From Hyphomicrobiales bacterium (GTDB lineage: Bacteria > Pseudomonadota > Alphaproteobacteria > Rhizobiales > Beijerinckiaceae): a stretch of DNA of 45,849 nucleotides. The stretch's first letter is position 1. Each line of letters opens with the position of its first letter. The position numbers and the translations under genes are program-made. A model generated the notes under the pieces. It had not been told where the DNA came from. It made no database searches and saw only the letters and a list, made by a program, of their open reading frames with translations. Shown here piece after piece: positions 10,822 through 28,060 of the stretch. The stretch covers positions 1 through 45,849 of the forward strand of contig JAIXSM010000066.1 of NCBI GenBank assembly GCA_027484655.1. The letters run 5' to 3'.

Positions 10822-11562
10822 TCAGGCTGCGGCGCCCCCCTCGCCGCCTTGCTCACGCGTACGGCGCGCCTCCGCGTCCTTGAGAGCGCGGAACGCGCGC
10901 AGGCTCAGAAGATGGCTGTAGATCGCCGCCAGATACCCGTTGCGCGCGAGCGACAGAAGGTCTTCGTCGCCCAGGCTGTTGAGCTTGGCTTCATTGACCG
11001 CATGGAGATCGGTCCAGCCATAAGTCCGCCCCTCATCGCTCACCTCCACGGTGATGGGGTGGAAGAGGTCCAGTTCGGACAGGCGCGCCACAAAGGCGTC
11101 GCTCGCCTTCGCGTCGATCGCGTAAGCTTCGGCGACGCCCAACATGCGGTTGAGAAAAGCAGACGGCTCGCCTGTCTCCTCAAACAACGCAGCGCCGTCG
11201 CCCGCCTCACGCGCGGAGGCGTCGATGCCAAGGATCATCTGCGAGCCGGGCGTCTCAGCGATGATGAAAGGGAAGCGCGCAAGATAACGTGGAAGATACG
11301 CGCCAAGCCACGCGCCGTCCGGCGTTGTCATCAGGTTCTGGCCAGGGCGCAAGCCGAACAGAAAGACAGGTGTGTGCCGTTCGTTCTCCTTGAGGAAGAC
11401 AATAGGATACTCGCGAGCCCCTGCCGCGAACTCATCGGCAAGACAGGGGCAGAGATGCGACGCCGCGCAAAAGCCGAAACGCCGGTCGCCGAAGTCAATC
11501 TTGCGCGCACGATCACGATCACGCTCAATGGCGGCGACGTCGGTATAGAATACGGGAAGCAT
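10822..11562 (-). CDS. SapC family protein
   Basis: A 246-aa protein with no signal peptide. It shows the SapC family (PF07277-type) pattern: an N-terminal FGFCAASHLCPCLADEF, EYPIVFLKENERHTPVFLFGL near residue 50, GAWLGAYLPRYLARFPFII near residue 80, and a C-terminal GWTDLHAVNEAKLNSLGDEDLLSLARNGYL segment. A strong ribosome binding site AAGGA lies 6 nt upstream of the ATG. SapC is named from the Campylobacter surface-array (S-layer) locus; its biochemical role is unknown. It is the last gene of the giant-TpsA / TpsB / IalB / SapC cluster, 23 nt after ialB, so a role in assembling or modifying the surface exoprotein is a reasonable inference. Confidence 0.88.
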   Translation of the reverse strand: MLPVFYTDVAAIERDRDRARKIDFGDRRFGFCAASHLCPCLADEFAAGAREYPIVFLKENERHTPVFLFGLRPGQNLMTTPDGAWLGAYLPRYLARFPFIIAETPGSQMILGIDASAREAGDGAALFEETGEPSAFLNRMLGVAEAYAIDAKASDAFVARLSELDLFHPITVEVSDEGRTYGWTDLHAVNEAKLNSLGDEDLLSLARNGYLAAIYSHLLSLRAFRALKDAEARRTREQGGEGGAAA

Positions 11563-11585: not shown

Positions 11586-12152
11586 TCAGTTGCGCTTCTC
11601 AAGCGCCGACAGCGCGTCCGCAAATCCCTTGGAGGAAAGGGAGAGCCTCGCCTTCGAGCGGCTCGCATCCGAAAACTCGATGGCGGTCGCCGTACCGTTG
11701 CGCAGGGCGTCGAGAAGTTCCTTGCGCGCATCGGCCTCGGCGATGCACATCTGGGGCGTGCATCGCACGAAACGAGCCGTGACGGACGCCTTCTCCGCCG
11801 TGACAATCACACCGTCCGGCAGCCAAACGCCGATGGGCGCCTGAACCACGATCTTGCGCTCGGACTTGGGATCCACCCGACCAATGGCGATGGTGGCGAT
11901 CACCTGATTGTTGGTTCGGTTCCGGAAAGTCTGAACGATCTCGCAGATGGGCCTCGCGCCCGCGTCCCTCGGCTTTTCGCCTTCCGGCGCATTGGGGCGC
12001 TGCACGGCGCAATTCAGAATCCAGTCCTGATAGACGTCGGTCGAACGGTCGGGCGTCTGCGCCAGCGCCGGCGCCGGCGTGAGAGATGCGGCGACGACCA
12101 GGAGCGCCGCCGGGATGAAGCCCCGGCGGATGCGGAAAAGACTTTTCAACAT
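11586..12152 (-). CDS. Invasion-associated locus B (IalB) family periplasmic protein
   Basis: 188 aa from ATG 12152, preferred over an upstream GTG because AAGGAG sits 3 nt before the ATG. The signal peptide runs to about residue 32 (TPAPALAQ). The mature part carries IalB features: W-x-L-x-C near residue 45, PICEIVQTFRN near 70, APIGVWLPDGVIV near 105, and RCTPQMCIAEAD near 130, with four cysteines likely forming two disulfides. IalB was first linked to erythrocyte invasion in Bartonella; most alphaproteobacterial homologues are of unknown function. It begins 25 nt downstream of the TpsB stop and 23 nt upstream of sapC, so it is almost certainly co-transcribed with them. Confidence 0.9.
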   Translation of the reverse strand: MLKSLFRIRRGFIPAALLVVAASLTPAPALAQTPDRSTDVYQDWILNCAVQRPNAPEGEKPRDAGARPICEIVQTFRNRTNNQVIATIAIGRVDPKSERKIVVQAPIGVWLPDGVIVTAEKASVTARFVRCTPQMCIAEADARKELLDALRNGTATAIEFSDASRSKARLSLSSKGFADALSALEKRN

Positions 12153-12177
12153 GGTCTCCTTGAGACTTGCCACAACG

Positions 12178-13905
12178 TCAGTAGCGAACCGTCAGACGAA
12201 AATGCACCGCGCCGTTATCCTTCGGCGTGTTGGCCGTCTGCTCGACGCGCCAGCCATATCCGACGTCCAGCGACGCGTGGGGCGCCAGATCGTACGAGAT
12301 ACCGACGCCGACGCCCGCGAGCTTCACTTTCTGCATATCAACCGCGGTCGGCGACTGGTTGCGACCGAACGCTGCGTCGTAGAACGCATAGAAGCGTAGT
12401 TGGTCGTTGAAGCCGCCGGCGCCTTGCAGAAGGCTGAGCGCCGGCGTGTAAATCGTCGTGTTGGAGACGATGCCGGAGTCCGCGCGCTGCTTGCCGAAGG
12501 TGAAGCCGCGCACCGAGCCGACGCCGCCAAGAAGCAGCGTTTCCGACGGCAGGAGCGTCTGATCGGACGCCTGCCCCGTGAGCGTTTGAACGAGACGCCA
12601 ACCGCTGCTGAAATCATAACGATGGTCAATGGTGGCGCGGGCGTAAACATAATTTGATTTCGCGCCGGCCCGCAGCGCATTGAACGCTGTGTCGTTATTT
12701 CCGCTGCCCAGATCACCCGGCGAGAAATAGGCGTTGGCGTCGAACCGCGTGACGCCCCATCCGGAAATCAGCTCGCCGGAGTAGCCGACAACGCCATGGA
12801 TGGCGACAGCCTTCGTGTCGGTGACGTTGTTGCCGCCAAAATCGAGGTTGTTGTTGCTCGCCTTGTACTCGGCGCCGAAGCGGAGGTCATGGGACAGGCG
12901 TCCCCAATGGCGCAGCGGCGCCGTCAGATACGCGCCCGCAACATCGCTCACACCCTTCTGGATCAGCGGATTGGGCAGATTGCTCGTTGAATCCGAACGA
13001 CCATAGGTGAGCAGCAGGTGATAGCGGGACATCAGCGGGAGGTTCAGCGACACCACATGAGAGCGCAGGCTCTCCAGATCCTCGCCCATGGTGAACTGGT
13101 AGCCGAACACCTCGTCAAGCCCGAGGGTGTTGTGCAGCATGAAGCCGGCGAACGGACGCCAGACGCCGAGCGGGCCCCTGTCGCCCTTGGTTTCGACGCC
13201 GCCGTAGACGATCCACGGCTTCTGCTGGTTCACATTGAAGACGACCTCCGTCTCGCCAAAGCGCTTGCCCGGCTGATAGAGCGCGCTGACCGCGCGGAAC
13301 GGATTGCGGTTGAGATATCGCAGCGTGTCGAGCACCGCGCCCTCATCGACCGGTTCATCGACGGCGAGCGTCGCCTCCCGCGCGAAAAACGGAACATCCT
13401 CCGCGCGGGCGCCCTCGATACGCACAGCGGAGAGGCGACCGACGACCACAAGGATCTGCAGCGTGCCGTTCGTGACATCCTGCTCAGGCGCCACCACGTT
13501 GACCACGGGACGGTTTTCAGCGCGGAACGCAAGCACAAGATCGCGTGTGAGCTGATCGAGGTCGCCGAACGTCAGGGGCTTGCCAAGATAAGCCTCTGCG
13601 ACCGCCGTCACCCGGGCGGGAAAGACTTCGGGATCGCCCGAGACGCCCTCCACGCTCGCGCCCCGCTTGCGAACCATTGTCGGCTTGTCGACGAGCGCCA
13701 CGCCGCGCAGGTTCTTGATGACGACCTGCTGCTTTTGCGCTTCCGGGCGCGTCGCCGTGCTGTCGGTCGAAACAGGCGCGGGCGTCGAAGAGGCGTTGCT
13801 CAACGGCGGCGCATAGCGCGTCAGCCACTGCTCGCTCATGGCGGCGGCGGGAGCGTTCGCGGCGATAACGGCGACCGCAGTCAGCAGGTAAAGCGATTTT
13901 TTCAT
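12178..13905 (-). CDS. TpsB outer-membrane exporter of the giant exoprotein (ShlB/FhaC family)
   Basis: A 575-aa protein with a signal peptide (residues 1-22, NAPAAAMS) and a linker of Pro/Ser/Thr. POTRA-type domain(s) occupy about residues 60-210, with LTRDLVLAFRAENRPVVNVV and GRLSAVRIEG. A beta-barrel runs to the C-terminal LTVRY. The L6-loop signature is a full VRGF near residue 465 (GGVGSVRGFTFGK). It starts 43 nt after the stop of the 4221-aa TpsA, the classical A-then-B order. This exporter and the one at 5399-7123 are clearly diverged, matching the different TPS-domain types of their substrates (HMW1-like here, FHA-like there). Confidence 0.93.
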   Translation of the reverse strand: MKKSLYLLTAVAVIAANAPAAAMSEQWLTRYAPPLSNASSTPAPVSTDSTATRPEAQKQQVVIKNLRGVALVDKPTMVRKRGASVEGVSGDPEVFPARVTAVAEAYLGKPLTFGDLDQLTRDLVLAFRAENRPVVNVVAPEQDVTNGTLQILVVVGRLSAVRIEGARAEDVPFFAREATLAVDEPVDEGAVLDTLRYLNRNPFRAVSALYQPGKRFGETEVVFNVNQQKPWIVYGGVETKGDRGPLGVWRPFAGFMLHNTLGLDEVFGYQFTMGEDLESLRSHVVSLNLPLMSRYHLLLTYGRSDSTSNLPNPLIQKGVSDVAGAYLTAPLRHWGRLSHDLRFGAEYKASNNNLDFGGNNVTDTKAVAIHGVVGYSGELISGWGVTRFDANAYFSPGDLGSGNNDTAFNALRAGAKSNYVYARATIDHRYDFSSGWRLVQTLTGQASDQTLLPSETLLLGGVGSVRGFTFGKQRADSGIVSNTTIYTPALSLLQGAGGFNDQLRFYAFYDAAFGRNQSPTAVDMQKVKLAGVGVGISYDLAPHASLDVGYGWRVEQTANTPKDNGAVHFRLTVRY

Positions 13906-13948: not shown

Positions 13949-16900
13949 CTATCGGGGACTAATCCTCGCAACCAGGTTGGCGCCAGATGAAGAGAAGCTC
14001 AGGACGCGCTCGCCCGAAACGCGCACCGCCTGCAGCGGAATCGGGCGCGGCGTCGCGGGCGCATGGACGTCCGGTGAGCCGAAGGTCACTGGAGCTGCGA
14101 GCGGCGCCGGAGCTGCGGTGCGGATCACGATTGTTTCACCGACGCGGGGCTCGCCAGCGATGATGGGAGCCGCCGCCGGCGGAAGATCCGCGCGAGGCCC
14201 GGGCTGGCCGCCTCCGGTCAGCATGCGCGCCGGGATGAACGCATTGCCGGATTCAGCTCTTCCCGCCGGCGCCTGCGCACCGCAACCTTCGCCATCATCC
14301 CCGCCCGATAGCGGGCCGGACCAGGCAAGCGCATTCCGCGGCCTTGCCGCGACTGCGGCGCCGATGTTGACCCCGCCCCCGCGCACATTGATACACGAGC
14401 CGCCGGGCCGGTCGATGCGGTGGGTGTAATCCCACGGGCCTGCGATGTAGACGGGACCAACGTCTTCCCCGCCGAAGTAGAAGGCGAAGTTGCCTGGGCC
14501 GGTGTCCACATAGCGCGCGGCTGCCGACATGGTCGTGAACCCGTTTTCATGGGTCACGGCGCCCTGGACAATGTCTGTGCTGTCGGACCGCGCCGGGATC
14601 GCATCGGTCTTCGAGGCCGAGTCGTTGAATTGCGTGACAGGGATCTTGTCGCCCGCGACAATCGTCAGGTTCCGCCGCGAGGGCATGAAGAACCGCAGCT
14701 CGCCGCCATTCTCTCCGTACCCGGAGTTGATGTTGGCGCCAGCGAACAGCATCAGATCCTTCTCGGTGGTCGCGTCCTCCGGCGAAGGCGTGTTCTGGCC
14801 GGCGCCGATGGTGGTCAGGCCGGCGATACGGTTGCGCGTCGCGCCGGCGCCCATCACCGCGTTGTTCTTCGACACGCTCGCCGCCGCGAAGTCGTAAGGC
14901 CCGTGGCCCATGTTCGCGGTCTTGGCGTGCAGGTGCGCGCCGACCTCGACCCAGATGTCGCCCGAGGCGGTCTGAACCTCGTTGAGCGCGGCGCCCTCCA
15001 CCGGCGCGAACTTATGGCCGATGCGGACTTCGCCGCCCGCCGTGCCGTCGAGCAACGCGTTGTTCGTGCCCAGCGCGCCGGGAGCCGGCGCCTGGCCTAC
15101 GACGGTCGGGGTGGCGTTGAGGCCCACCTTCACAGTGATGTCGCCGCCGATCTTCTGGGGCGTCACCACGCGGCCGCCGGTGACCTGCCATTCGTTCGAC
15201 GGCGGGCTGTAATGGCCGATCTGCGCCGTCCCGCTGTCCGTCACCATGCCGAGGCTGTTGCCAGCCGTCACCGCGATGTCGCTGTCGATCGACTGCGCCA
15301 CCGTGCTCGGATCGGCTGACGACGTTTTCACCGCGTCCGTCTTGCTGAGCGCGCCCGTCTCCACAATCGTGTGGCCAATGCGCGCCACACCGCCGTCCCC
15401 CTCGCGAACTTCAATGTTGCGCAGCGACGCCACGGTGATGGCGTCGACGATGTTCTGCGATGTGACGAAGACGCCGGTCGGCTGATAGGCGGCAGGGTTG
15501 TGGCTGACCTTGCTGGTGGAGGAATGCCCCACCTGCGCCGCGCCCGCCTTCGAGGGCGTCAGCACCCGAATGTCGCCGTTGACGGGCGTCGTCACGATGC
15601 TGCTCTGCTGAGGAAGCGCGGCGACCGTCGTCAGGCCGATATTGCCGCCGAGCGTCTGGTTTGAGCTGACGCGCCCGCCGCCGTGGGTATCGACGACGAC
15701 GCTCGCGGTGTTGCCGAGGCGCACGCCTTCCGGCAGTCCGTTGAGGGACTGGACCAGAATCTCGCCCGAGGACACCGACAGGTTCGCCTGAACGGTCTGC
15801 CTGGCGACCACGTTGAAGCCCGGGGCCGCGACCAGCGGATAATCCTCCGGGGTGAGGCCCAGACGCCGGTCGGCGGAGCGCGCCGTCTGCACGCCACTGT
15901 GGCCGATGTGATTAAGGCCCGTCGCGGTCGCGTCGGTCTGCTGCGTGAAGCTGCGCGAGGACTGCAGCGTGATCGCGCCGCTGACGTTCTGCGTCGCGGT
16001 GGTGATCCCGCCATCCTGCGGCGTTTCTCCAGCCGTTTCGCCGGAGTCGGCAGTCTGGACGACCGCGTGCCCCAAGTGAACGGTGGCGGAGCCCAGTCCG
16101 TTGTTCTCGACCACGAGATCCTCAAGACCGGAGGTCAGGAAATCGCCCGCCACCGTCTGCGTCGCCGTGACGTTGGAGCCGTCGTCCACCGGATGGCCAG
16201 ACCGCGAGGTCTGCGTGACCCGCGCGCCGATCTCGACCGACTTGGCGCCCTCGCCGACCGACCGGATGATCAGGTCGGCGCGGTTGCTGGACCCGTTGAG
16301 ATCGAGGTTGATGTTGAACGCCGAGGTCACCGTTTGCGCCGTGGTGATCGCGCCGCCCCGGTTGTTGTCGGGGCCGCCCTTGCCAGCGATCATCTCGTCG
16401 GAGCCGGACGCATTCGTGACGTCAGCCGTAATCCCGATGTGCAGGCGCGACGCTCCCTTCCCACCGTCCGCCATGAGCAGACCGTCGGCCGCGCCCGTCG
16501 GCGACGAGGAGATCTCGTTGGCGCGGATGTGCGCGGTCCCGGTGGCCGTCTGCGTCGCGTCGATGGCGCCGCCGCGTCCGAGCAAATCCTCGATGTCGGC
16601 CTTGCCGGCCGTGTTGGTCATGGCGACCGTGTGCAGCAGGTGCACCACGGACGCGCCGTCGCCGCTGGTGGGGTTGACCACCACGCGGTTGGCGATGAGC
16701 GACACATCGCCCGTCGTCGTCTGGCTGACCTTGATGGAGCCGCCGTCGCCGGCCACGCCGCCATCGAGCGGCCCGCCCGTCGTCAAGCCAGCGCCGACAC
16801 CGGTGGCGTTCGTCATCTTGTGGCGATGGCCGAGTTCCACGAAGGACCGGGCGCCGTCGCCGTTCTCCGCCTGCACGGCCACCACGCCGCCGGCCAGATA

Positions 16901-19900
16901 CTTGCCGCCCTCTGTCGCCGGAACGCCAGCGCGCGCCGTGATATTGCCGGACACGGCCGCGTCGCCCCGGTAGACAATAGAACCGCCATCCGCCGCGTCG
17001 GCGATGCCGTTCGCGTTGCCGCCGGCGATGACCGTCGTATTGCCCAGCGCGAGAGCGGTCTTCGCCGCCGTCACTGCCGCCCGTACGCCGGCGATTGTCG
17101 TTGCGGCGCGCGCGTCGGCCAGCGCCTTGGTGGCGTCGGCCAGCGCCTTCGACAGGTTCGTGCGCTGCGTGGCCGAATAATGCTCCGCGTAGCGGTTGGC
17201 GATGGTGAGCGCCGCGACCACGTTCTCAAGATCGTGGATCACAACGGCCGAGTCGCGCGTGGTCGCCTGTCCGGCGCCCGAAGCGGGCAAGGCGAGGAAG
17301 TCGGCGAGCGCCGTGTCGAGCGCCGCGAACGCTGCGGCGCCATAGCCCGACCGCCCGGTGATGATTGCATATTCGACCGTGTGGCCGACGAGGACCTGCG
17401 CATCCGCGCCCAGGGCCGAGGTCGTCTTCACCGTCACGGTCCTGGCCGCCAGCGCCTGAATGAGGATGTCGCCGGAGACAGCCCCGCGCGTGATGTCAGC
17501 GCCGCCGCCTTCGCCGGGCGAGCGCGGTCCGCTCGGGCCGCCGGTGACGCCGCCCTGCCCGGTCAACGCCGTGACGAAGCGCTGATGGCCCACGGTGGTC
17601 GTCGTCTTGCCCGTGTTGCCGTTGGCGAGAACGTCCACATCGCCACGGCGCGACTGCAGCGTGATGTTCGCCGTCACCGCGCCCGCGTTGATGATGACGT
17701 TGCCGCCGTCAGCATCCTGCACGTGGTTGGCGTGGATCCCAATGGTGAAGTCCGGCGCGCCGTTGGCGACGTCGATGTCCTCGACGTCCTTCACGTCGGC
17801 GCCGGCGCCCGCGACCACTGTCCCCGTGCGCGTCCCGTAAACGGTGTCGGCGACGATCTGCTTGTGGCCAATCACGGTCGTGGCGCGACCGGAGGCCAAA
17901 GCTGTGACGGAGTTCACAAGCAGCTTGCCGTCAGCGTCCAGCATGATCGCATCGCTGATCGGACCCTGGGTGATGGAGACCGAACCGCCGTTGCCCTCGC
18001 GCACGCCGTAGAGGCTGGCGCGGGCGTCGGGACCGACCGTGTACGGAACCGCGTCGCCGGCCTTCACCGAGTCGATGACCAGCGCATGGCCGATGCTGGC
18101 CAGCGTTTCGCCGCTTGCCTGGGTGGCTGTGCTGAGCACCGTGATGGATGTCCCGCTCGGGCTCGGCCCTTCGGCGGTGAGCGTGATGGCGCCCGCCGCG
18201 CCATCTTGCGTGATGACCACGGCGCCGCCATTGCCGAGCTTGCCCTGGGACAGGGCGTTCCGGTCGCCGCCGCCGTCGCCAGCGCGCGCCACCGGCTGGG
18301 TGCGGAAGCCGGGATCGTCGCTGCCCACCGTCGCGCGATGGCCGATCAGCGAGCGCTGCCAGCCCGCCGTTTCCGTGCCGGACGCCTTCACCACGATGTC
18401 GCCGTAGGTCGCAAGCACGCTTGACCCGGCCGTGAGCGAGATCGCGCCCGAGACGAGCTGCTGGACGATCCGCACCTCGCCGCCGTCGCCGCCGATGCCC
18501 TCGGCGTTGGTCCCGCCCCGAACGTCCTGGCCCTTGCCGCCGGAGGCGTTCGACACCTCGGACTCGTGGCCGATGTGCGCGATTTGCGTGCCGCCGTTGA
18601 GAACGCCGGCGGTATTGACAAGAATCCCCCGCGCAGCGTCCGCCGTGTTGGCCGAGTTGGCGACCACCGAGACGTCGCCCGTGATCGCGCCTTGCGTCAC
18701 GTAGGCGCCGCCGCCGTGGCCCGACGCCATGGACAGCGCGACGAGCGTGTTCTTCTCGTTGTCGCTGACCTTCGGAACGCTGTTGTCCGTTCCGGCGATC
18801 GCGTCGTTGTCGCGCGCCAGCGGATAGGCGTTCGGCGTTCCCGCAACAAAGGCGGCGGGGCCGGCGAGAATGCGCGAAACGAAGCCGCCCGGCAGGCGCG
18901 ACGCTGCGGGCCCGGCGGAGCCGTCATACACAGCAGCCAGCTTGTAGTAGCGAAGGACCGGCGCCACGAGTTCCTTCTCGAGATCCGAGAGGTTCGAGAA
19001 GTCCTGACCGAGATCGACGAAACGCCGCAGGGCGGTCAGCATCGCCGCATCGTTGAAGCTTGCGGACAGGCCGCCGAACCCGCCAGCGCCAGCGAGAACC
19101 GAATTGGCGATGGCGTGGTGGCCTACGCCAGCCACGACCGTCGGCGACGAAACCTTGGGGTTCAGCGCTTCGATCAGCACGCTGTTCTCAGCCGTGATCG
19201 AAATGTTGCCGGTGATCGCAGCGGACGTGATCGTCGCCGCGCCGCCGAACCCGCCCTGCGCGGAGAGCGTGGCGCTGTACATGGGCCCGGGGGGCGGCAT
19301 CGCCGCGTTCCCGCCCGCGCCGCCAAACGCATCGCCCATGGTGCGGTGGCCCACCCGCGCCGTGGCGCGATGGTCGGCGCTGTCGGTCGCATCCTGATCG
19401 GAAGCAAGGATGCGGATGTTCTTGTCGAGCGCGCCGCCGGTCTTGTTGGCCTCGCCCGCGACCACGTTGGTGAGCGTGAGGTCGCCGCTGATCGCGCCGA
19501 ACACAACCTTGCCCGCGCCGCCGTCGCCGCCGTCGCCGCTGGTGACCGTCGCTGCGAGCGTGCTCGAGATGGACGAGCCGCCGGCCCCGCCCCTCGCCGA
19601 TGCGTTGTGGTTGTGGCCGACAATAGCGAGGTTGCCGAACAGCGAGGAGCCCGTGTTCGCCCCATCGCCAACAAGCGACGAGATCAAGATCCCATCCTTG
19701 CCGCCGCCCGAAAGGTCATGCGCCGTCAGGGTCACCGCGCCGCTGGTGTCGCCGATCTCGACAGTCCCCCAGCCGCCCGCGCCGCCGTCGCGCACGGTGC
19801 CGAACATGATCGGATTGCGATCCTTGAGCGCGGTTGAGCCCGCCGCGCCGGGAACGTCGAAGCCTTCATGGAACGCGGGATCCGCAGTCAGCGTCAGGCC

Positions 19901-22900
19901 GCCCTTCGCATCGCGCTGTCCGCTCGCGCCGCCGGAGCTGCCGATCGCCTGCACCCAGGCGCCATGGCCTGCGGCCGCGAGCAGGTAGTTGTTGGCGCCT
20001 GAGTTCACCGTGTTGTCGGACGACTTGATGACGATGGCGTCATCGCCGTTCTTGGCCGGGCCGGCGTCAATGACGATCGCGCCCGCGAAGCCGGCAAGCT
20101 TGATGGAGGCGAGGCCGCCGGCGCCGCCGTTCGCCTGCTGATTGAATTGCTCGGTGATCTCGGATTGGCCGGTCCCCGCGCCGCCAGAGCCGCCGTTGGC
20201 GTTCGCCCAGGCGTAGTGGCCCGCCTGCGCGCGCACCTTCTGCGCGCCGCCTTCCAATGTGGCCGCCTCGATGCGCACGCCGTTGCCAAAGGCCGCGTCA
20301 GCGTAGGTGAACGCATCCAGCGTGATGTCGCCACTCACCGCCGCCGTCTGGATGACCGCCGAACCGCCAGCGCCGCCATTCGCCTGATACTGGCCATCGT
20401 CGCCCGCGCCGCCGTTGCCGCCCGTGGCGTCAAGAAGGCCGCCGTGGCCGACGTTGGCGAACGTGATGTCGTCATCGTCGCCAATCGTCGTCGACCCGCG
20501 CTTGATCGCCTCGATCACGAGGGCGAAATCACCGCCCGCCTCGGCGCTGCCGGCGCGAACAGTGATGGCACCCTTGACCTCGCCAATCTGGATCAGCGCA
20601 TTGCCGCCGCGCCCGCCGTTGGCGGACTCGGTGATCAGGCTGCCGTTCCCGGAGTCGGATGCGCCCGACCCGCCGCCGTTCGCCGCTTTCGCGAACGACT
20701 GGCCGCCGTGGCCGATGGCGGCGATGGAGCGGTTGCCGGTCGTCACGTCGTCGGTGAAGGAGCTGACCTTGACGCCGCGCGTTTTCGGCGCGTCGAGGTT
20801 GATCGCGATGTCGCCCGCCACGCCGCCGGAAATGACCGTGGCGTCGCCGCCGCGCCCGCCATTGCCGTTCACCGCGTTGATCCCGGCGCCGCCGCCGTTC
20901 GCGCCGCCTTGGGCGCTGGCGTGCAGGGCCCCAGCGAGCTTCGCATTGTAGCTCGCGTCCGTGGCGGCGTAGAGATAATCGGTCACGCCGATGCGCGCGC
21001 TCGCCACGTTGTTCGGGCCTTTACTGTCTGGCGTCGCCTGCATCGTCGACGAGACCAGCAGCGAGAAGTTAGCATCCGCAGCGGGCGCGCCCGTGTTCGC
21101 CTTGCCCGCGTTCAGCGAGATCATCGGCGTCGAGGCGAGGCTCGTGCGCGTGAGGCCCGTGGCGATGCGCGCGTCGCCGCCTCGCCCGCCGTTGGCGGTG
21201 GAGAAGTCGGCGTACGTCCAATCGAGCTTGTTGCCGGCCACTGTGGCGGTGCGGCCGGTCGCGTAGACGTAATCGACAAGGGCAAGCGCAGCGAGGTCGC
21301 CGTCCGGCAAGCGCACGCGGCCCGCGATCTGGTCATAGACGTTGTTGTTGTCGGCGTCGATCAGCGTTAGGGCGGATGCCTTGCTCAACACGGCGGCGAC
21401 CACATCGGGGCGCCCATCGTTGTTGATGTCGACGTACTGGACGCGGGCCATATCAACGCCGTCGTTATATGCCCCGACAACCCGGCCGAAGCGGGCGACG
21501 TTGTTGGCCGCTGAGCGTAGGGCGGCGTTGGCGCCGGTGTTGGCGACCAGATTGTTGTTCGCGTCGAGAATGAACTCCGGATTGCCGTTCACGTCGAAGA
21601 ACGAGGGATTGGCTGTCGAGTTGTTGATCGGCGCAGCGGTGCGCCGCGCCGCGACCGACTGGATGGTGTCCGCGACGCCGTTCTTCGCGAGGCTCACGCC
21701 GCGCGTGCCGTCGCGATTGACGATGACCTGAATATCTCCCGCAGAGTCCTGAATGCCGTCGTTGGCGCCTGATTTCGTATCGGTTCCGCTGGTCCCGCGC
21801 AGCGATCCGCCGGCGCCGCCCCTGCTGGTGAGGGCGACGATGTCGTTGAGATGTCCGATGCCCGAATGGGCGCGGCTTTCCGTGCCGGGGCCCGCTGTGG
21901 ACGTCACCGCCACCTGCTCGTCCGCGTTGATCAGAATGCGGCCGATCACGAACGCTCCCGCCGGAGCGCCAGCTGAACCCGTCGGCGCGTCGCTGGCGTC
22001 GTGGCCGCCGGCGACGATGCGAATGTCGCCGCCGCGCCCGCCCGATGCGTCGTTCTGGATCGGCTGCGGCGTGGTCGCGTTGAGCGCCTGCGCGCCAAGG
22101 AGGCCCGCATCAAAGGAGGCGCGGCCAGGGCCGCCTGCAGCCCCGGCGCCGGCAAGCGCCAGAATGCGCGTGTTGTGGCCGATGTTGGCGATGACCTGAT
22201 CGCCCGGGCCGTTAGCTACGCCGGGCGCGATGCTGGAATTCACCGTCAGGCTGCGCCTGTTGGGGTTCGCGCCTGTGATTGTCAGTTCAATGTTGGCGTC
22301 GCCGTCATGGACGAATCCGCCCACCGCGCCGTTGCGCTCGGTGATGGCGCCGAGTTTGATCGAGATGTCGCCGCCATTGCCGCCGCGCGCCGCGCCCGAA
22401 CCGCTTTCGCCGCCGAACACGCCGAACGCGAGGAAGGCCTCGGCGGCAGCCTGGGCCTTCGCCACCGTTTCCCCGTTGGTGAGGTAGTTTCCGGACCCGC
22501 CCGCGCCGCCGTCGCCGGAAAGCGCCTGGATGCTGTCGCCGTGGCCGATGGCTGCCTCGGAAATGTTATTCGTCGATGGCGTGAGCGCGTTCGTGGTGGA
22601 GGCGTTGAGCTTGATCTCACCAACGACGGTCGCGACGATGGAGCTTTCGATCAGCCTGCGGCTCAGATCGATGTCGATATGCCCGCCGCGGCCGCCATGG
22701 GCCGTGGTGACGAACGTGTCGTTGGCGCGGGACCCCCCCGCGCCGCCATTGCCCGTCCGCGCGAAAATCTGGTCGCCATGGCCAACGCGCGAGGAAAGGG
22801 TGTTGCTGCGCGCAGGCGCCTGCCCGGCCGTCGCGGACGAGGTGATCTCGAGCGCCGGGGTCGCGGTGAGATCCCTGGCCTGCAGCGTGATCTGGCCGCG

Positions 22901-25900
22901 CAGGCCCCACGCGAGATCATCCGCCGCGCCGTTGATCCCATAGTCGCGGCCGGGCGTCTGCTGCTCAATGCGGATATCGCCGCCGCGCCCGCCGTTGGCG
23001 CCCGTGCCGCCGGCGCCGCCGTCGCCGGTCGCCAGCGCGATCACCGCGCCGTGGCCGATGCGGGCGAGCAGCGCGTTCTCCGCCGTCTCGGCCAATCCAG
23101 CCGTCGCGGACGTCGAGAACTTGATGTTGTTCTGAGAGGCGATGGTGATCGTGGTGTCGTAGCCGTCGTCACCGGTCAGGTTGGTCGAAGACGTCGGATA
23201 AGCGCCGTCCCACACCGTGCCGCGCTTGAAGAGGATGTCGCCGCCCCGCGCGCCGGAGAAGGCGCTGACGCCAGTTTCGCCGATGCCCGTGCCGCCCTTG
23301 CCCGTGGTGAGGAACGCCTCGTTGCCCGAGCCGATCGCGGCGCCAACGATATTGCCCGAGACCAAACCCTTGCCAGCGGTCGCCGACACGTTGGCCGTCA
23401 CGTCGTCGTTGTTGTTGGTCTCGACGCGGATGGTCGAATACAGGACGTTCGCTTCCGTGAAGGTGATGTCGCCGCCGCGCACGGGCCCTGTCATCAGCGC
23501 GTTCTGGGTAGCCGCAGCGCCGTTGGCGCCATTGGCCGTCTCGAGTTGGATAAACCCGCCGTGACCGATGCGCGACAGGGCGAAGTTGTCCACAACCTCA
23601 ACATCGCCAGCCGTGATGATGGACGAGAGCGTCACGCCCTTGCCCGTTCCAGCGTTAGTGCTCACAAGCACGTTGCCGGAGAGGTCGCCTTCCGTCAGCA
23701 CGACGCTTGATTGCTGGGTCGTGGTTGCGGCTGTCGTAGAGGCCACCAACGTCGTGTTGGCGACGATGAGCGCGTCGAGCTTGGCGCGGACCTGCGCCCG
23801 CGCTTCGGTCGACAGGCTCGAGAGGTCAACAGCGAGCGCCTGTGCAAGCGTCTTGTCGTCCACCAGCGGATCAACGCCATCGACAATCACAGATGTGTCT
23901 GTCGACGCGAGGTTGATCAGCTGGCCCGCCTGCAGGCGCACATAGTTGCCGTTGCCGATGGAGGCGCGCTGGATGTTGGCGACCCCGTTCAACGGCGACG
24001 CAAGAATGGAGTTGAGCAAGATCTCGTCGGCCCGGATGGCGATGTCCGGACGCGTCGTCAGATTGCCGTTGATATCCGCGTAGGAGCGGATTGCCCCCGT
24101 GTCGACGCTGAAATTGCCGCCGGCGCTGGTTGTGTTGATGAGGCGCGCCTGCGTCCCATGGCCGATCTGCGAGAAGACCTCGCGGCCATCGTCCTCTTCG
24201 CCCGGCGAAATCGCGGAGCCGAGTTGGACCTTCTCGAGACGGGTCGCGGGCCTGACCTTGGCGCCCTCGTGGAATCCGACAGTGATCGCGCCGGCGATGT
24301 CGCCAGTGACGAGCGTTCCCGCGCCGCTAAGCACGGCGTGGGAGCCGTGGCCGATACGGGCGAGGAACACGTCCGCGACGGCGTTTTCCGCGACGCGCTC
24401 AGCCGGCGAAACCGCACCGTTCAGCGTCACGGACTTCAGCGCGTCGACAAAAATATCGCCGGAGATCTGGCCGAGTGAGACGGACAACGCCTGCGAGGCG
24501 AAGAAGCTGCCGTGGCCGATCTTTGCGAAGGCGCTCTCCACGCCCTGCGTGTCGAGCGAAACCGAGCCGCCCGTCGACACGACGTGGATGTCCGAGCTCA
24601 GGATCGCCGCAGTGCCGCCTGTCGTCAGGCCGCCATGGCCGATCTGCGCGAAAGAGCCTTCGCCCGAGCCGCCAAGCAGCGCGATATCGCCGCCAGCGAA
24701 CACCTCGATCGTGCCGTTCTCCGCACGGAGCGAGGGCGCTGCGTAGTCCGCGCCAGTGTTATTGCCGCGCGCGCTCGTCTGTCGATAGCCAATCTGGACG
24801 CCCGAGTTCTCCGCGCCGCCGATGATCGAGACCTTGCCCACGCCTGCGGAATCCGGACGCGCGTTGAACTTCTTGTCGCCCGCGACAAGGCGCGTGACGC
24901 CGAACTCCGAGCCGATGCGGATCGCGCCGGCGCCGTTGACTGTGCCGATCTGGATGTTGCGCCCCGCGAGAAGCTCGACGCCGCCCGCATCCGTCAGCAC
25001 GAACGTATTGACCCCGTCGCCCGTCTGCGTGTTCGAGATGGTCACGTTGTTCTGGACAACAATGTCGTTGCCCGCTTGCAGCGACAGCATCGTCGCGCCG
25101 TTCCAGACGATGGAAACGCCGCTCTTGACGGTGATGTTCTCGGCGCCGCCGCCCGTCGCGGCGGACGTGGCGATGGTCAGGTTGCCGAGACCAAGCTGCG
25201 CAACGATGTAGTCGTCGTTGAACGTGTTCACATTGACGGCAGAGTTATCGCCATCCTGAATGGTGATGCTGCCGGGATCGATGAGGAACGTGCCGGCGGC
25301 GCCAAGCGGCGCGCGCAGGTCCGCATGGCCGGACACCAGAACGCTTTCCTTGCCGGAAACCTCCGCAAAGCCGCCGTTGCCGCCCTTGTCGCCGCCCCGG
25401 GCCGAGATCGCCCCGTGGAAAGTGGTGGAGCCGTCGGCCCAGATGGAAACCTTGCCACCGTCGCCCTTTTCCTTCGCGTCAGCGACGATCTGCGCGCCGG
25501 CCGCGACGGTCACGTCGTCCGCGTTGAGAATCGTCGCGTCCTTGCCCCGGAAGCCGCCGCCGATAGCGATGACGCCGCCGCCATTGGGGCCCGAGGCGGC
25601 AATGCGCGCGGTCGAGCCGAGCTTGATGGCCTCAGCCTCGATCACGACTGAGCCGCCTGCGCCTCTCTCGGCCGAAACGTCAACCGTCCCGGAGATATCG
25701 ACCACATTCTGCTGAGCGCTGGCGCGCCGGGCCGGAGCCGCCGCCGGGCGCGTCGCCGTGGCGACTCTCACCTTGCCGCCGGAGCCGTCCGCGTTGCGCG
25801 CAGCCACCGTACCCGACGACGCGACGTCGCCTGCATTCGCGGTGAGGAAGACGCGGCCATCGCGGGTCTGCACACCGGTCGCGCGCACAACGCCGGTGTT

Positions 25901-26614
25901 GTTCACAGCCAGCGCGTAGTGATTGCCGCCGGCCGCGCGCAGCTCCGCCGTCACCGCGGCGATGTCTCCAGCGTTCTTTACACTGCCGGGCCCCATGCGC
26001 ACCGCGATGCGCCCGTCCCCGGTGTCTGTGGAGCGAACCAGAACCTCGGAGCCGCCGGCGAGACCGACAGTCCCGCCCGGAGCGCTGATCGACCCCGCGT
26101 TCTCAACGTGCCGCGCAATCAGGAACACGTCCCCGCCGCCAGTGGCGCGGATCGTTCCCTGGTTGACGACCGCGGCCGCGGACGCGCCGCTGAAGGTCAT
26201 GTCCCGCCCTGCGAGGAACTCCGTGTCCCGCACCGAATGGGTGGAGAGCACAAGCCCCGCCGTGTCGATGACCCCGGTCGGGCCAACGACAATGCCGTTC
26301 GGGTTGATGAGGAACAGCCGCCCGTTCGACGTCAGCGAACCATAAATCGCGCTCGGGTCCGCGCCCGTCACGCGGTTCAGCGTCGCCCCGCCGGCCGGCG
26401 TCTGGAAACGCGCGCTCTCCCCCGCGGCGATGGAGAAGCCCTGCCAGTTGATGATCGCGTTCTGCGTGCTTTGCGTGACGGTCAGGGATTGCGGCCCCGG
26501 GGTCGCAATGACCGCCGCCCCGCTGACCACCGTACCACCCTGCGGCCCGGCGGAAACGGCGCTCGTGAACGCAACGACGGACATGGAGGCGAGCAGGCTG
26601 GCGCGAAACGGCAT
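13949..26614 (-). CDS. Giant HMW1/HxuA-type TPS exoprotein with IGH repeats
   Basis: About 4221 aa from ATG 26614, taken as start because a signal peptide (MPFRASLLAS...SAVSA) begins there; an in-frame GTG at 26662 would add 16 polar residues. Residues about 25-280 are a TPS domain of HMW1/HxuA type: NAIINWQGFSI, LNRVTG, SAIYGSLTSNGRLFLINPNG. Near residue 450 is GTFLIDPGSITI, a segment common after the secretion domain. Residues 658-3902 carry about 38 degenerate repeats centred on I/V-G-H, linked by GG-x-GG turns and SGDI-type strands. Inserts include three helical segments and an FG-GAP-like calcium-loop region (residues about 1672-1765). The tail is Pro/Ala-rich. Only Cys4074 and Cys4111 were found. 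No barrel is present, so export needs the adjacent TpsB. Likely role: a very long surface adhesin or fibre; the ligand is unknown. The frame is intact over 12.7 kb. Confidence 0.93.
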   Translation of the reverse strand: MPFRASLLASMSVVAFTSAVSAGPQGGTVVSGAAVIATPGPQSLTVTQSTQNAIINWQGFSIAAGESARFQTPAGGATLNRVTGADPSAIYGSLTSNGRLFLINPNGIVVGPTGVIDTAGLVLSTHSVRDTEFLAGRDMTFSGASAAAVVNQGTIRATGGGDVFLIARHVENAGSISAPGGTVGLAGGSEVLVRSTDTGDGRIAVRMGPGSVKNAGDIAAVTAELRAAGGNHYALAVNNTGVVRATGVQTRDGRVFLTANAGDVASSGTVAARNADGSGGKVRVATATRPAAAPARRASAQQNVVDISGTVDVSAERGAGGSVVIEAEAIKLGSTARIAASGPNGGGVIAIGGGFRGKDATILNADDVTVAAGAQIVADAKEKGDGGKVSIWADGSTTFHGAISARGGDKGGNGGFAEVSGKESVLVSGHADLRAPLGAAGTFLIDPGSITIQDGDNSAVNVNTFNDDYIVAQLGLGNLTIATSAATGGGAENITVKSGVSIVWNGATMLSLQAGNDIVVQNNVTISNTQTGDGVNTFVLTDAGGVELLAGRNIQIGTVNGAGAIRIGSEFGVTRLVAGDKKFNARPDSAGVGKVSIIGGAENSGVQIGYRQTSARGNNTGADYAAPSLRAENGTIEVFAGGDIALLGGSGEGSFAQIGHGGLTTGGTAAILSSDIHVVSTGGSVSLDTQGVESAFAKIGHGSFFASQALSVSLGQISGDIFVDALKSVTLNGAVSPAERVAENAVADVFLARIGHGSHAVLSGAGTLVTGDIAGAITVGFHEGAKVRPATRLEKVQLGSAISPGEEDDGREVFSQIGHGTQARLINTTSAGGNFSVDTGAIRSYADINGNLTTRPDIAIRADEILLNSILASPLNGVANIQRASIGNGNYVRLQAGQLINLASTDTSVIVDGVDPLVDDKTLAQALAVDLSSLSTEARAQVRAKLDALIVANTTLVASTTAATTTQQSSVVLTEGDLSGNVLVSTNAGTGKGVTLSSIITAGDVEVVDNFALSRIGHGGFIQLETANGANGAAATQNALMTGPVRGGDITFTEANVLYSTIRVETNNNDDVTANVSATAGKGLVSGNIVGAAIGSGNEAFLTTGKGGTGIGETGVSAFSGARGGDILFKRGTVWDGAYPTSSTNLTGDDGYDTTITIASQNNIKFSTSATAGLAETAENALLARIGHGAVIALATGDGGAGGTGANGGRGGDIRIEQQTPGRDYGINGAADDLAWGLRGQITLQARDLTATPALEITSSATAGQAPARSNTLSSRVGHGDQIFARTGNGGAGGSRANDTFVTTAHGGRGGHIDIDLSRRLIESSIVATVVGEIKLNASTTNALTPSTNNISEAAIGHGDSIQALSGDGGAGGSGNYLTNGETVAKAQAAAEAFLAFGVFGGESGSGAARGGNGGDISIKLGAITERNGAVGGFVHDGDANIELTITGANPNRRSLTVNSSIAPGVANGPGDQVIANIGHNTRILALAGAGAAGGPGRASFDAGLLGAQALNATTPQPIQNDASGGRGGDIRIVAGGHDASDAPTGSAGAPAGAFVIGRILINADEQVAVTSTAGPGTESRAHSGIGHLNDIVALTSRGGAGGSLRGTSGTDTKSGANDGIQDSAGDIQVIVNRDGTRGVSLAKNGVADTIQSVAARRTAAPINNSTANPSFFDVNGNPEFILDANNNLVANTGANAALRSAANNVARFGRVVGAYNDGVDMARVQYVDINNDGRPDVVAAVLSKASALTLIDADNNNVYDQIAGRVRLPDGDLAALALVDYVYATGRTATVAGNKLDWTYADFSTANGGRGGDARIATGLTRTSLASTPMISLNAGKANTGAPAADANFSLLVSSTMQATPDSKGPNNVASARIGVTDYLYAATDASYNAKLAGALHASAQGGANGGGAGINAVNGNGGRGGDATVISGGVAGDIAINLDAPKTRGVKVSSFTDDVTTGNRSIAAIGHGGQSFAKAANGGGSGASDSGNGSLITESANGGRGGNALIQIGEVKGAITVRAGSAEAGGDFALVIEAIKRGSTTIGDDDDITFANVGHGGLLDATGGNGGAGDDGQYQANGGAGGSAVIQTAAVSGDITLDAFTYADAAFGNGVRIEAATLEGGAQKVRAQAGHYAWANANGGSGGAGTGQSEITEQFNQQANGGAGGLASIKLAGFAGAIVIDAGPAKNGDDAIVIKSSDNTVNSGANNYLLAAAGHGAWVQAIGSSGGASGQRDAKGGLTLTADPAFHEGFDVPGAAGSTALKDRNPIMFGTVRDGGAGGWGTVEIGDTSGAVTLTAHDLSGGGKDGILISSLVGDGANTGSSLFGNLAIVGHNHNASARGGAGGSSISSTLAATVTSGDGGDGGAGKVVFGAISGDLTLTNVVAGEANKTGGALDKNIRILASDQDATDSADHRATARVGHRTMGDAFGGAGGNAAMPPPGPMYSATLSAQGGFGGAATITSAAITGNISITAENSVLIEALNPKVSSPTVVAGVGHHAIANSVLAGAGGFGGLSASFNDAAMLTALRRFVDLGQDFSNLSDLEKELVAPVLRYYKLAAVYDGSAGPAASRLPGGFVSRILAGPAAFVAGTPNAYPLARDNDAIAGTDNSVPKVSDNEKNTLVALSMASGHGGGAYVTQGAITGDVSVVANSANTADAARGILVNTAGVLNGGTQIAHIGHESEVSNASGGKGQDVRGGTNAEGIGGDGGEVRIVQQLVSGAISLTAGSSVLATYGDIVVKASGTETAGWQRSLIGHRATVGSDDPGFRTQPVARAGDGGGDRNALSQGKLGNGGAVVITQDGAAGAITLTAEGPSPSGTSITVLSTATQASGETLASIGHALVIDSVKAGDAVPYTVGPDARASLYGVREGNGGSVSITQGPISDAIMLDADGKLLVNSVTALASGRATTVIGHKQIVADTVYGTRTGTVVAGAGADVKDVEDIDVANGAPDFTIGIHANHVQDADGGNVIINAGAVTANITLQSRRGDVDVLANGNTGKTTTTVGHQRFVTALTGQGGVTGGPSGPRSPGEGGGADITRGAVSGDILIQALAARTVTVKTTSALGADAQVLVGHTVEYAIITGRSGYGAAAFAALDTALADFLALPASGAGQATTRDSAVVIHDLENVVAALTIANRYAEHYSATQRTNLSKALADATKALADARAATTIAGVRAAVTAAKTALALGNTTVIAGGNANGIADAADGGSIVYRGDAAVSGNITARAGVPATEGGKYLAGGVVAVQAENGDGARSFVELGHRHKMTNATGVGAGLTTGGPLDGGVAGDGGSIKVSQTTTGDVSLIANRVVVNPTSGDGASVVHLLHTVAMTNTAGKADIEDLLGRGGAIDATQTATGTAHIRANEISSSPTGAADGLLMADGGKGASRLHIGITADVTNASGSDEMIAGKGGPDNNRGGAITTAQTVTSAFNINLDLNGSSNRADLIIRSVGEGAKSVEIGARVTQTSRSGHPVDDGSNVTATQTVAGDFLTSGLEDLVVENNGLGSATVHLGHAVVQTADSGETAGETPQDGGITTATQNVSGAITLQSSRSFTQQTDATATGLNHIGHSGVQTARSADRRLGLTPEDYPLVAAPGFNVVARQTVQANLSVSSGEILVQSLNGLPEGVRLGNTASVVVDTHGGGRVSSNQTLGGNIGLTTVAALPQQSSIVTTPVNGDIRVLTPSKAGAAQVGHSSTSKVSHNPAAYQPTGVFVTSQNIVDAITVASLRNIEVREGDGGVARIGHTIVETGALSKTDAVKTSSADPSTVAQSIDSDIAVTAGNSLGMVTDSGTAQIGHYSPPSNEWQVTGGRVVTPQKIGGDITVKVGLNATPTVVGQAPAPGALGTNNALLDGTAGGEVRIGHKFAPVEGAALNEVQTASGDIWVEVGAHLHAKTANMGHGPYDFAAASVSKNNAVMGAGATRNRIAGLTTIGAGQNTPSPEDATTEKDLMLFAGANINSGYGENGGELRFFMPSRRNLTIVAGDKIPVTQFNDSASKTDAIPARSDSTDIVQGAVTHENGFTTMSAAARYVDTGPGNFAFYFGGEDVGPVYIAGPWDYTHRIDRPGGSCINVRGGGVNIGAAVAARPRNALAWSGPLSGGDDGEGCGAQAPAGRAESGNAFIPARMLTGGGQPGPRADLPPAAAPIIAGEPRVGETIVIRTAAPAPLAAPVTFGSPDVHAPATPRPIPLQAVRVSGERVLSFSSSGANLVARISPR
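14903..24643 (-). repeat. Tandem degenerate IGH-repeat array inside the giant exoprotein
   Basis: Within the 4221-aa protein a motif of the form A/S-x-I/V-G-H recurs about 38 times from codons at 24643 to 14903 (residues 658 to 3902), a mean spacing near 88 residues. Variants include ARIGHG, SRVGHG, ANIGHN, ARVGHR, AQVGHS, ANMGHG and decayed forms such as ASIGNG and ARIGVT. Each unit typically reads IGH, a loop with GG-x-GG, then GGRGGDI or GGAV-x-ITQ, then SGDI/GAITL-x-A, then a strand leading to the next IGH. Unit length varies, so the array is ancient and diverged rather than freshly duplicated. Confidence 0.85.
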
Positions 26615-27208
26615 GTCAATGACCCTGAGCGTTATCGATTCATCTGAAAAACCACGCCGCACGATATGGCCACGCTCATGTCATGTAAAGTATTTTGGCA
26701 CAACGCCGACCCATTTTATCAGCATTGCTGGTGAATTCGGCCTATCCTTCTGCAATAAATGGCGAATTATGAACCGGGAAAGACGCTTTCGCACTCATAA
26801 GGACATTCTATTTTTTTCATAATATTCAGATCTGAAACGTTTTTTTCGATTTCGGATGATTGAGGTGATTTTTCTACACGCGATTACAGGCTGAAAGAAG
26901 CTTTGCAATAAGATTAAAGAATATCGAGCTATTACATATCCATCCTGACCACCACTCCACCGCGGTCGCAGGTGTTGCTTTTCAGCCACGCCGCTGAAGG
27001 TTTTCGCAGGCGCTCGAGCGGAAACCGACCTGATTGCATCAGCTATTCCGCTCTAGCTTATTGTTTTTACGCATTTTCTTAAGTCCAACCGGCATCCGCT
27101 TGGACGGAAAATGCTCTCACGGGAACGGGAGCCAGCAGCGGGCGTTCGCCCTGTCAGTAACGCACGTGGGGCGTCGCCCCCGGTGGCGGGTATATGCAGG
27201 AGGCAGCC
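26615..27208. promoter_or_regulatory. Intergenic region with AT-rich core upstream of the giant TPS operon
   Basis: About 590 bp with no supportable gene. Positions about 26660-26960 are strikingly AT-rich compared with the surrounding 65%-type GC coding DNA and contain long T runs and a perfect 12-bp palindrome TTCAGATCTGAA (26825-26836). This is the expected site of the minus-strand promoter for the TpsA-TpsB-IalB-SapC operon. Nearer 27200 the GC is high again, with an inverted repeat GGGGCG-T-CGCCCC (27168-27180) 17 nt upstream of the ribosome binding site of the small ORF at 27209. Confidence 0.45.
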
Positions 27209-27409
27209 ATGATGGATCGATTTACAGCGCGGGCTCTCGTCGAGGCTGGGCGCTTGTCCCTGGCGGAGTATCTCCGGCTCTTCGGCGATGAGATCCGCGC
27301 CGCGCGCGAGGCCCACCGGGCGGGGGCGGCGGAGCGGTTGCCAACCAACGCGCCCACAGCGGAGCGAAACCTCAGTCAAGCTCCACCACCTGCCCCTCGC
27401 GCAAGGTGA
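27209..27409 (+). CDS. Small uncharacterised protein (66 aa) convergent with lolD
   Basis: A consensus ribosome binding site AGGAGG (27198-27203) stands 5 nt before ATG 27209, the best in the window, which is the main evidence that this is a real gene. The protein begins [20 protein letters not shown] and continues with [10 protein letters not shown], giving an amphipathic helical N-terminal half (residues 3-42), followed by a Pro/Ala/Arg-rich tail. No signal peptide or membrane segment is seen. Its last 38 nt overlap the 3' end of lolD on the opposite strand (27372-27409). I do not recognise a named family. The tail may be poorly conserved, the N-terminal half is the likely functional part. 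Confidence 0.6.
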
Positions 27410-28055
27410 CGCGGCGATCCATGCGTGCGGCAAGCTCGAGGTTGTGGGTGGCGACCAGAGCGGCGAGGCCGGTGACGCGAATGATGTGGGTCAGCGCGTC
27501 AAACACGTGGTCGGCCGTGCGCGGATCCAGGTTGCCTGTGGGCTCGTCCGCAAGCAGAAGCCGCGGCGAGTTGGCGATGGCGCGGGCGATGGCGACGCGC
27601 TGCTGCTCACCGCCGGAAAGCTCCGCCGGCCTGTGGGTGAGCCGGTCGCCGAGGCCAAGGTAAACGAGGACTTCGTCCGCCCGCTGATGCGCAACCTTGC
27701 GCGAGAGGCCGCGGATCATCTGCGGCAGCATCACGTTCTCGCGGGCGGAGAATTCTGGCAACAGATGATGAAACTGGTAGACGAACCCGATTTCGAGCCG
27801 CCGTAGCCGCGTGCGCTCCGCGTCGTCCAGGTTCGCGGTGGGCAGATCGCCGATGTAAATCTCGCCTTCGTCCGGGCGCTCCAGCAAACCCGCAAGGTGC
27901 AGCAGCGTCGACTTGCCCGCTCCTGACGGCGCGATCAGCGCCACGGATTCGCCCGGCCAGAGAGCAAGCTGCGCGCCGCTCAGCACGCGCAGCTCGGATT
28001 CGGCCTGGCGATAGGTCCGCCCGATATCGTGCATATGCAAAATGGGCTGGGACAC
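27372..28055 (-). CDS. lolD: Lipoprotein-releasing ABC transporter ATP-binding protein LolD
   Basis: A 227-aa ABC ATPase of the LolD/MacB group that powers release of outer-membrane lipoproteins from the inner membrane to LolA. Visible motifs are Walker [10 protein letters not shown] (near residue 43), a Q-loop region with [21 protein letters not shown] (near 92), the signature [14 protein letters not shown] (near 146), Walker [13 protein letters not shown] (near 166) and the H-loop VATH (near 201). The FHHLLPEF segment is typical of LolD. The start is GTG 28055, 5 nt after the permease stop, so the two genes are co-transcribed and follow proS. The 3' end overlaps the convergent small ORF. 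Confidence 0.95.
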
Positions 28056-28060
28056 GCGGG

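Follow-up and report, generated by a model that had tools for sequence, protein, structure and literature searches.

A giant two-partner-secretion exoprotein of a Hyphomicrobiales bacterium with an apparently undescribed Gly-His repeat unit

The window, a stretch of 45,849 nucleotides from a Hyphomicrobiales bacterium (contig JAIXSM010000066.1), contains on its minus strand the gene of a giant TpsA-type exoprotein, most of which is made of repeated units that each carry a Gly-His pair. The protein is assigned to the two-partner-secretion (TPS) exoproteins because it has an N-terminal TPS domain and because a TpsB transporter is encoded by the next gene. The gene, its principal parts and its partner are as follows.

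13949..26662, minus strand: TpsA-type giant exoprotein gene (open reading frame and translation), 4237 aa from a GTG start or 4221 aa from an in-frame ATG at residue 17
25805..26545, minus strand: TPS secretion domain with NPNG motif, residues 40-286 (PF05860, E = 1.7e-32; TIGR01901, E = 1.6e-19), matched at the same place in the genome search
14903..24643, minus strand: repeat array, residues 674-3920, with 31 [IVLAM]GH units and 5-7 degenerate ones
18479..23020, minus strand: GGxGG part of the array and candidate polyglycine-II ridge, residues 1215-2728, with 22 GGxGG in 14 units and a VIA-align match to 7jjv
13952..14467, minus strand: predicted disordered C-terminal tail and candidate disulfide anchor, residues 4066-4237, predicted local distance difference test (pLDDT) about 30, with Cys 4090 and 4127
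12178..13905, minus strand: TpsB outer-membrane transporter (ShlB, POTRA_2; PF03865, PF08479)

The motif is far more frequent than composition would give. Exact [IV]GH occurs 26 times in the protein, against a mean of 1.5 and a maximum of 6 in 200 shuffles of the same protein, and the longer form [AS]x[IV]GH 21 times against 0.36, which rules out a chance origin of the array. Allowing L, A or M in the first position ([IVLAM]GH) raises the count to 31. Five further sites (residues 902, 1110, 1891, 3409 and 3649) lack the His in the window protein, whereas the majority of 14 aligned sequences read GH there, bringing the total to 36, and two looser candidates bring it to 38: residue 3342, which is LLH and conserved as such, and residue 3478, which is IGA and reads LGH in one of five distant relatives. 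The original prediction of about 38 degenerate I/V-G-H repeats between 24643 and 14903 therefore describes a real array, and its limits correspond to residues 674-3920 in the 4237-aa numbering. The family alignment of 14 sequences likewise yields 36 GH columns, spaced at a mean of 92.7 and a median of 78; one of them, column 1328, is GGH and no true motif. Recent tandem duplication is also ruled out, as the units differ from one another and can be aligned one to one with those of distant relatives. Long open frames run antisense to the gene (913 aa and others; 15683-18424, plus strand) and are probably a by-product of high GC content.

A hidden Markov model (HMM) of the unit was seeded with 150 family units chosen by their GH. 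At E≤0.01 it detects 30 domains in the window protein, and every one of the 30 family members has 15-33. The consensus begins roughly A-x-A-[QR]-[IV]-G-H-x(8)-G-x-GG and continues, after an interval, as GG-[RDN]-GG-D-[AIV]-x-[IV]-x-Q-G-x-x-I-S-G-D-I-x-[VLI]-x-A, closing with [VI]-x-[VI]-x-[AS]. It thus shows two glycine segments, with the GGX repetition by which polyproline-II (PPII)/polyglycine-II bundles are recognized. The spacing is specific: GGxGG occurs 22 times in the repeat zone against 4.0 in local shuffles, other spacings are not enriched, and eight of the 14 units that bear it have two copies. The GG-x-GG segments, described earlier as turns, and the SGDI/GAITL strand said to follow the motif are both real; within the array, GGxGG is limited to residues 1215-2728. 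These segments may form short polyglycine-II helices.

Three insertions, read from the sequence at residues of about 1620-1830, 2540-2640 and 3105-3205, break the array. The first contains the best Pfam match of any piece of the protein:

21398..21547, minus strand: FG-GAP-like match (FG-GAP_3, PF13517), residues 1706-1755, E = 8.5e-4, 20.3 bits against a cut-off of 26.9

Its acidic loops are conserved in relatives, with Asp columns invariant among three sequences, and it may be guessed that the D-x-D/N-x-D/N-G loops at residues of about 1690-1800 resemble calcium-binding loops. The second and third insertions (18743-19045 and 17048-17350, both minus strand) are Ala- and Leu-rich, helical-looking and partly conserved in relatives.

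The searches return no known family for the repeats. The whole-protein Pfam scan (4237 aa) was blank even for the TPS domain, and the results rest on scans of pieces. Neither Pfam, run on pieces of 500-600 aa covering the protein and on 31 single units, nor NCBIfam, run on the same units, gives a repeat family; the weak matches (best E 0.0034) each fall in one unit of 31 and look like chance. The unit profile has no match among PDB chain sequences at E≤1, and a single-sequence PDB search returns chance matches only (best E 0.086). No score above a curated Pfam or NCBIfam cut-off lies in the repeat zone, and membership of a known repeat family is rejected. The suggestion that the Gly-His signature belongs to no named domain is borne out within these libraries, including by the profile built from the units, and the unit apparently constitutes an undescribed repeat family.

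At least 29 relatives (P0002-P0030; 2063-6353 aa, some partial or near-duplicate) were found in three protein searches, a lower bound since only the candidates sharing most words were scored (1483, 1208 and 7993). P0007 is identical to P0005 where aligned. A search for shorter repeat-bearing proteins gave a single one, of 2063 aa. Among genomes sampled at successive ranks, the window's own included, a 1000-aa piece matched in 2 of 51 (genus), 1 of 149 (family), 4 of 297 (order) and 1 of 385 (class); the order and class searches scored at most two candidates per genome, and the former missed two genomes (G255 and G137) later found by the unit profile. With that profile, 6 of 297 genomes of the order were positive, all in frames of 3949-5861 aa, as were 3 of 398 of the phylum: the window's genome, G255 from the same family, and G886 with a marginal partial match (E 9.7e-4, 758-aa frame). 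The family is rare and patchy and, apart from G886, is confined to the order in these samples. A contig search with two glycine-rich peptides confirmed nothing, and one with the C-terminal region gave three loci. The source records retrieved are metagenome-assembled genomes labelled Cohaesibacter, Rhodobiaceae and Hyphomicrobiales, and P0003 also carries the label Hyphomicrobiales. P0023 is labelled Verrucomicrobiae by its source, possibly through misbinning or transfer.

The motif Gly is identical at all 26 exact [IV]GH sites in every comparable relative. The motif His is kept at 25 of 26 sites in P0009, P0010 and L016, 23 of 26 in P0012 and 22 of 26 in P0008; where gaps or partial sequences reduce the comparison, it is kept at 23 of 24 in P0011 and L011, 21 of 22 in L012 and 15 of 16 in L013. 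These distant relatives have an overall identity of 0.35-0.39, and their retention of motif His (85-96%) compares with 31-48% for the other His residues of the zone. In the 36 GH columns, His fills 424 of 483 cells (N 18, S 12, V 7, A 5, D 5, Q 3, I 3 and single others), a share of 88% that is inflated by choosing columns with His in at least half of the rows, a bias from which the 26-site comparison is free. Judged from these alignments, the units are old and fixed in order. The preservation of that order in relatives of only 35-39% identity suggests that every unit counts.

Two stretches of the protein were modelled with AlphaFold2 (pTM, predicted template modelling score).

19577..20950, minus strand: modelled stretch 1, residues 1905-2362, five motifs, pTM 0.76
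13952..16165, minus strand: modelled stretch 2, residues 3500-4237, seven motifs and the C-terminus, pTM 0.73

All 12 motifs in the two models form a two-residue break, or corner, after a β-strand of a predicted β-helix. The Gly-His pairs had been expected at fixed points along such a fold, and in both stretches they are; placement at unrelated points was not seen. Gly is present in 29 of the 36 two-residue breaks of the models. The first model has five strands per unit and, given the rung height of a β-helix, successive motif His residues are probably two rungs apart (about 9-10 Å). Foldseek returned nothing at E≤0.001 from the PDB or from viral models. The VIA-align tables take in only Foldseek-ranked chains, so that families outside them are not thereby excluded; the best row is 7jjv, and the first row for model 2 is EtpA (8cpk), tied with other β-helices. 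In a profile of 473 domains, small or hydrophobic residues prevail at positions 3, 5, 7, 13 and 15 and more polar ones at 4, 6, 14 and 16, which gives the motif His, at position 9, inward parity. When the two rungs are aligned by their inward residues, this His pairs with position 49, the Gly corner of the other rung (Gly 73%, Ala 11%, Ser 7%); the His of one rung may therefore pack on the Gly of the next.

The only two Cys residues of the protein, 4090 and 4127, lie 148 and 111 residues from its end, within the 172 residues of the predicted disordered tail. At least two Cys occur in the last 230 residues of 26 of the 30 members, 5-61 residues apart; in P0030 the pair is in the last 15 residues, and P0023, P0024, P0027 and P0029 have no Cys at all. 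In HMW1 and HxuA the C-terminus is kept fixed in the TpsB pore by a disulfide loop (PMC5422565), and by analogy we infer that the window protein stays attached through its tail Cys pair. As regards a C-terminal toxin domain of the contact-dependent-inhibition (CDI, CdiA) type, the last 598 aa match no Pfam family and the tail is predicted to be disordered.

The genes that follow TpsB, and those further along the window, are listed below.

11586..12173, minus strand: IalB-family gene (PF06776, E = 4.9e-22), starting right after TpsB
10822..11562, minus strand: SapC-family gene (PF07277, E = 2.1e-54), the sole SapC match of the genome
9668-10561, plus strand: ChaN / Cofac_haem_bdg family gene (PF04187), between the two TPS clusters
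7120-9528, minus strand: further TpsA-type gene with TPS domain
5399-7123, minus strand: second TpsB
4427-5368, minus strand: gene of a Sel1-repeat protein, flanked by the second TpsB and by the TpsA gene that runs off the window
1-4353, minus strand: TpsA-type gene with TPS domain, running off the window
27372-30693, minus strand: ABC (ATP-binding cassette) transporter ATPase and FtsX-type permease beside a class II tRNA synthetase, upstream of the exoprotein gene

The genome has three TPS matches, all within the window, and the unit search finds no Gly-His unit above noise in the two other TpsA proteins. Eight loci were compared: the window, L011, L012, L013, L017 (G686), G255, G137 and G086. 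A ShlB-family gene follows the exoprotein gene in all eight. In seven of them SapC is close behind the ShlB-family gene, separated from it by one to three small genes or about 1 kb; the genome of G086 has no SapC. IalB is confirmed in five loci (window, L011, L012, L013 and L017). A DUF4177-like gene of about 180 aa lies between TpsB and IalB in L011 (13416-13952) and L012 (13511-14071), with matches below cut-off in L013 (11137-11673) and in a longer frame of L018/G086. SapC belongs to an S-layer (surface-layer) export locus in Campylobacter fetus (PMC4943207, PMC3887049), and its association with the exoprotein genes suggests an extra partner for a two-partner system. No report joining SapC with a TPS exoprotein of this kind was found in the open-licence literature searched.

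The explanation favoured here is that the exoprotein would form a long right-handed β-helix rod on the cell surface, of about 36-38 units, each probably of two rungs. The two-residue corner after a strand would be made in every unit by the Gly-His pair, whose His may fill or cap the corner and help to lock neighbouring rungs. The GGxGG stretches of the 14 middle units may form short polyglycine-II helices, stacked as a ridge along the rod and displaying conserved connecting loops. Through the Cys pair of its predicted disordered tail, the protein would probably be held in the TpsB pore, as in HMW1 and HxuA, and SapC and IalB would probably be helpers of export or surface assembly. Taken whole, this account is considered probable, with appreciable room for doubt, and several observations weigh against it. 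Profile positions 11 and 12 break the alternation, making the inward His a lean and no proof, and an alignment by DSSP breaks would match the His to Asp 50 instead. The closer relatives P0005 and P0006 (identity 0.58 and 0.56) keep just 14 and 17 of the 26 motif His residues. A strict link with SapC is weakened by its occurrence in 5 of 51 genomes of the genus (one match partial), two of which, G715 and G701, lack a ShlB match, and by the control genome of Caulobacter vibrioides, which has SapC and no ShlB match. The lack of any Foldseek match to back a PPII bundle counts against the ridge.

This last point equally favours the strongest alternative, that the protein is a generic FHA-type adhesin in which Gly-His and GGxGG are ordinary β-helix filler with no extra ridge. 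Long imperfect repeats and β-helix folds are general features of TpsA proteins (PMC5422565), and Gly is common at β-helix corners, as in the models. However, the strict GGx spacing, the one-to-one conservation of units, the alignment to 7jjv and the failure of any Pfam or NCBIfam repeat family to match are not what simple filler would lead one to expect, and this alternative is judged unlikely, if still worth keeping in view.

The His residues had also been proposed as a ladder that binds metal, haem or protons, or locks coils; of these options only the locking of coils is retained, and a structural corner lock is the best fit among the readings of the His. A surface collector with metal ions or haem bound along one edge of the rod draws on the fact that no polar residue of the unit is better conserved than the His (85-96% in distant relatives; 92% in the profile, a value inflated by the GH-chosen seeds), on the action of the TPS protein HxuA on haem (PMC5422565) and on the nearby ChaN-family gene, of haem-binding type. 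That gene is on the opposite strand, however, and two rungs probably separate successive motifs. Binding of metal or haem would call for a second ligand. Each unit supplies a single His, and once Gly and core hydrophobics are set aside, its best-conserved polar positions after the His are Asp (58%), Asp (50%) and Gln (49%); the lack of a strongly conserved co-ligand lowers the claim. P0005 and P0006, moreover, lack 12 and 9 of the 26 His residues, replaced mainly by D, N, S or Q, and keep every motif Gly. The collector is accordingly rated very unlikely. A pH-responsive array, in which about 30 buried His residues at equivalent, possibly inward-facing corners would alter rod stability when protonated, is rated about as improbable; the presence of Asn, Ser or Asp at the same corners in relatives speaks against titratable groups being required.

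The corner-locked rod is thus preferred, most likely as a long anchored surface scaffold or adhesin, and a binding scaffold is favoured over a spacer because of the size, the fold, the fixed unit order and the conserved loops. A more specific form is offered tentatively, as possible and short of probable: a hybrid in which the TPS β-helix carries a second, polyglycine-II spine over about 14 units showing conserved loops, alternate rungs are locked by the corner His on the Gly of the rung between, and export is aided by SapC and IalB. The usual picture of a TPS surface protein is a rod of imperfect repeats. If the ridge is real, it would be a new way to join two repeat architectures in one fibre, and glycine-rich parts that are easily dismissed as disordered would be structured display surfaces.

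Whereas the TpsA class is known, the libraries and literature searched seem to contain no description of the unit, of the polyglycine-II-like segments or of the SapC/IalB neighbourhood. No description of polyglycine-II in two-partner secretion was found in the open-licence literature searched, where the one match concerns a pilus tip. The TpsA exoproteins FHA, HMW1 and EtpA resemble the window protein in their TPS domain, TpsB partner and β-helix fold, which in the window protein is predicted. EtpA has four 228-residue repeats (PMC10284417), whereas the unit of the window protein spans about 80-90 aa and has its corner at Gly-His and, in mid-array, GGxGG segments; the family differs from all three in keeping unit order across relatives and in the SapC and IalB genes nearby. 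The HMW1/HxuA anchor shares a Cys pair near the C-terminus, although that of the window protein is set back in the predicted disordered tail. The GGX motif is common to the glycine-rich PPII/polyglycine-II bundles (PMC13243192, PMC8409303) of springtail antifreeze proteins, phage S16 gp38, Obg and acetophenone carboxylase, to which the 7jjv row also points. Known bundles of this type are compact or form tips, whereas the candidate helices described here would alternate with β-helix rungs along a rod. The PE_PGRS 'sails' of mycobacteria are surface proteins with predicted stacked antiparallel polyglycine-II helices and variable edge loops (PMC9436101). In contrast, the window protein shows no PE domain in its first 500 aa, where the Pfam scan gives TPS alone, belongs to the TPS-secreted class and has its candidate polyglycine-II segments interleaved with β-strands, and some connecting loops of its family are strongly conserved where those of PE_PGRS proteins are polymorphic. 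Finally, the sapCDEF locus of C. fetus likewise places a SapC gene beside an export system for surface proteins, a likeness drawn by Pfam name; there SapC serves the transporter of the Sap S-layer, whereas in the window it sits beside a two-partner transporter.

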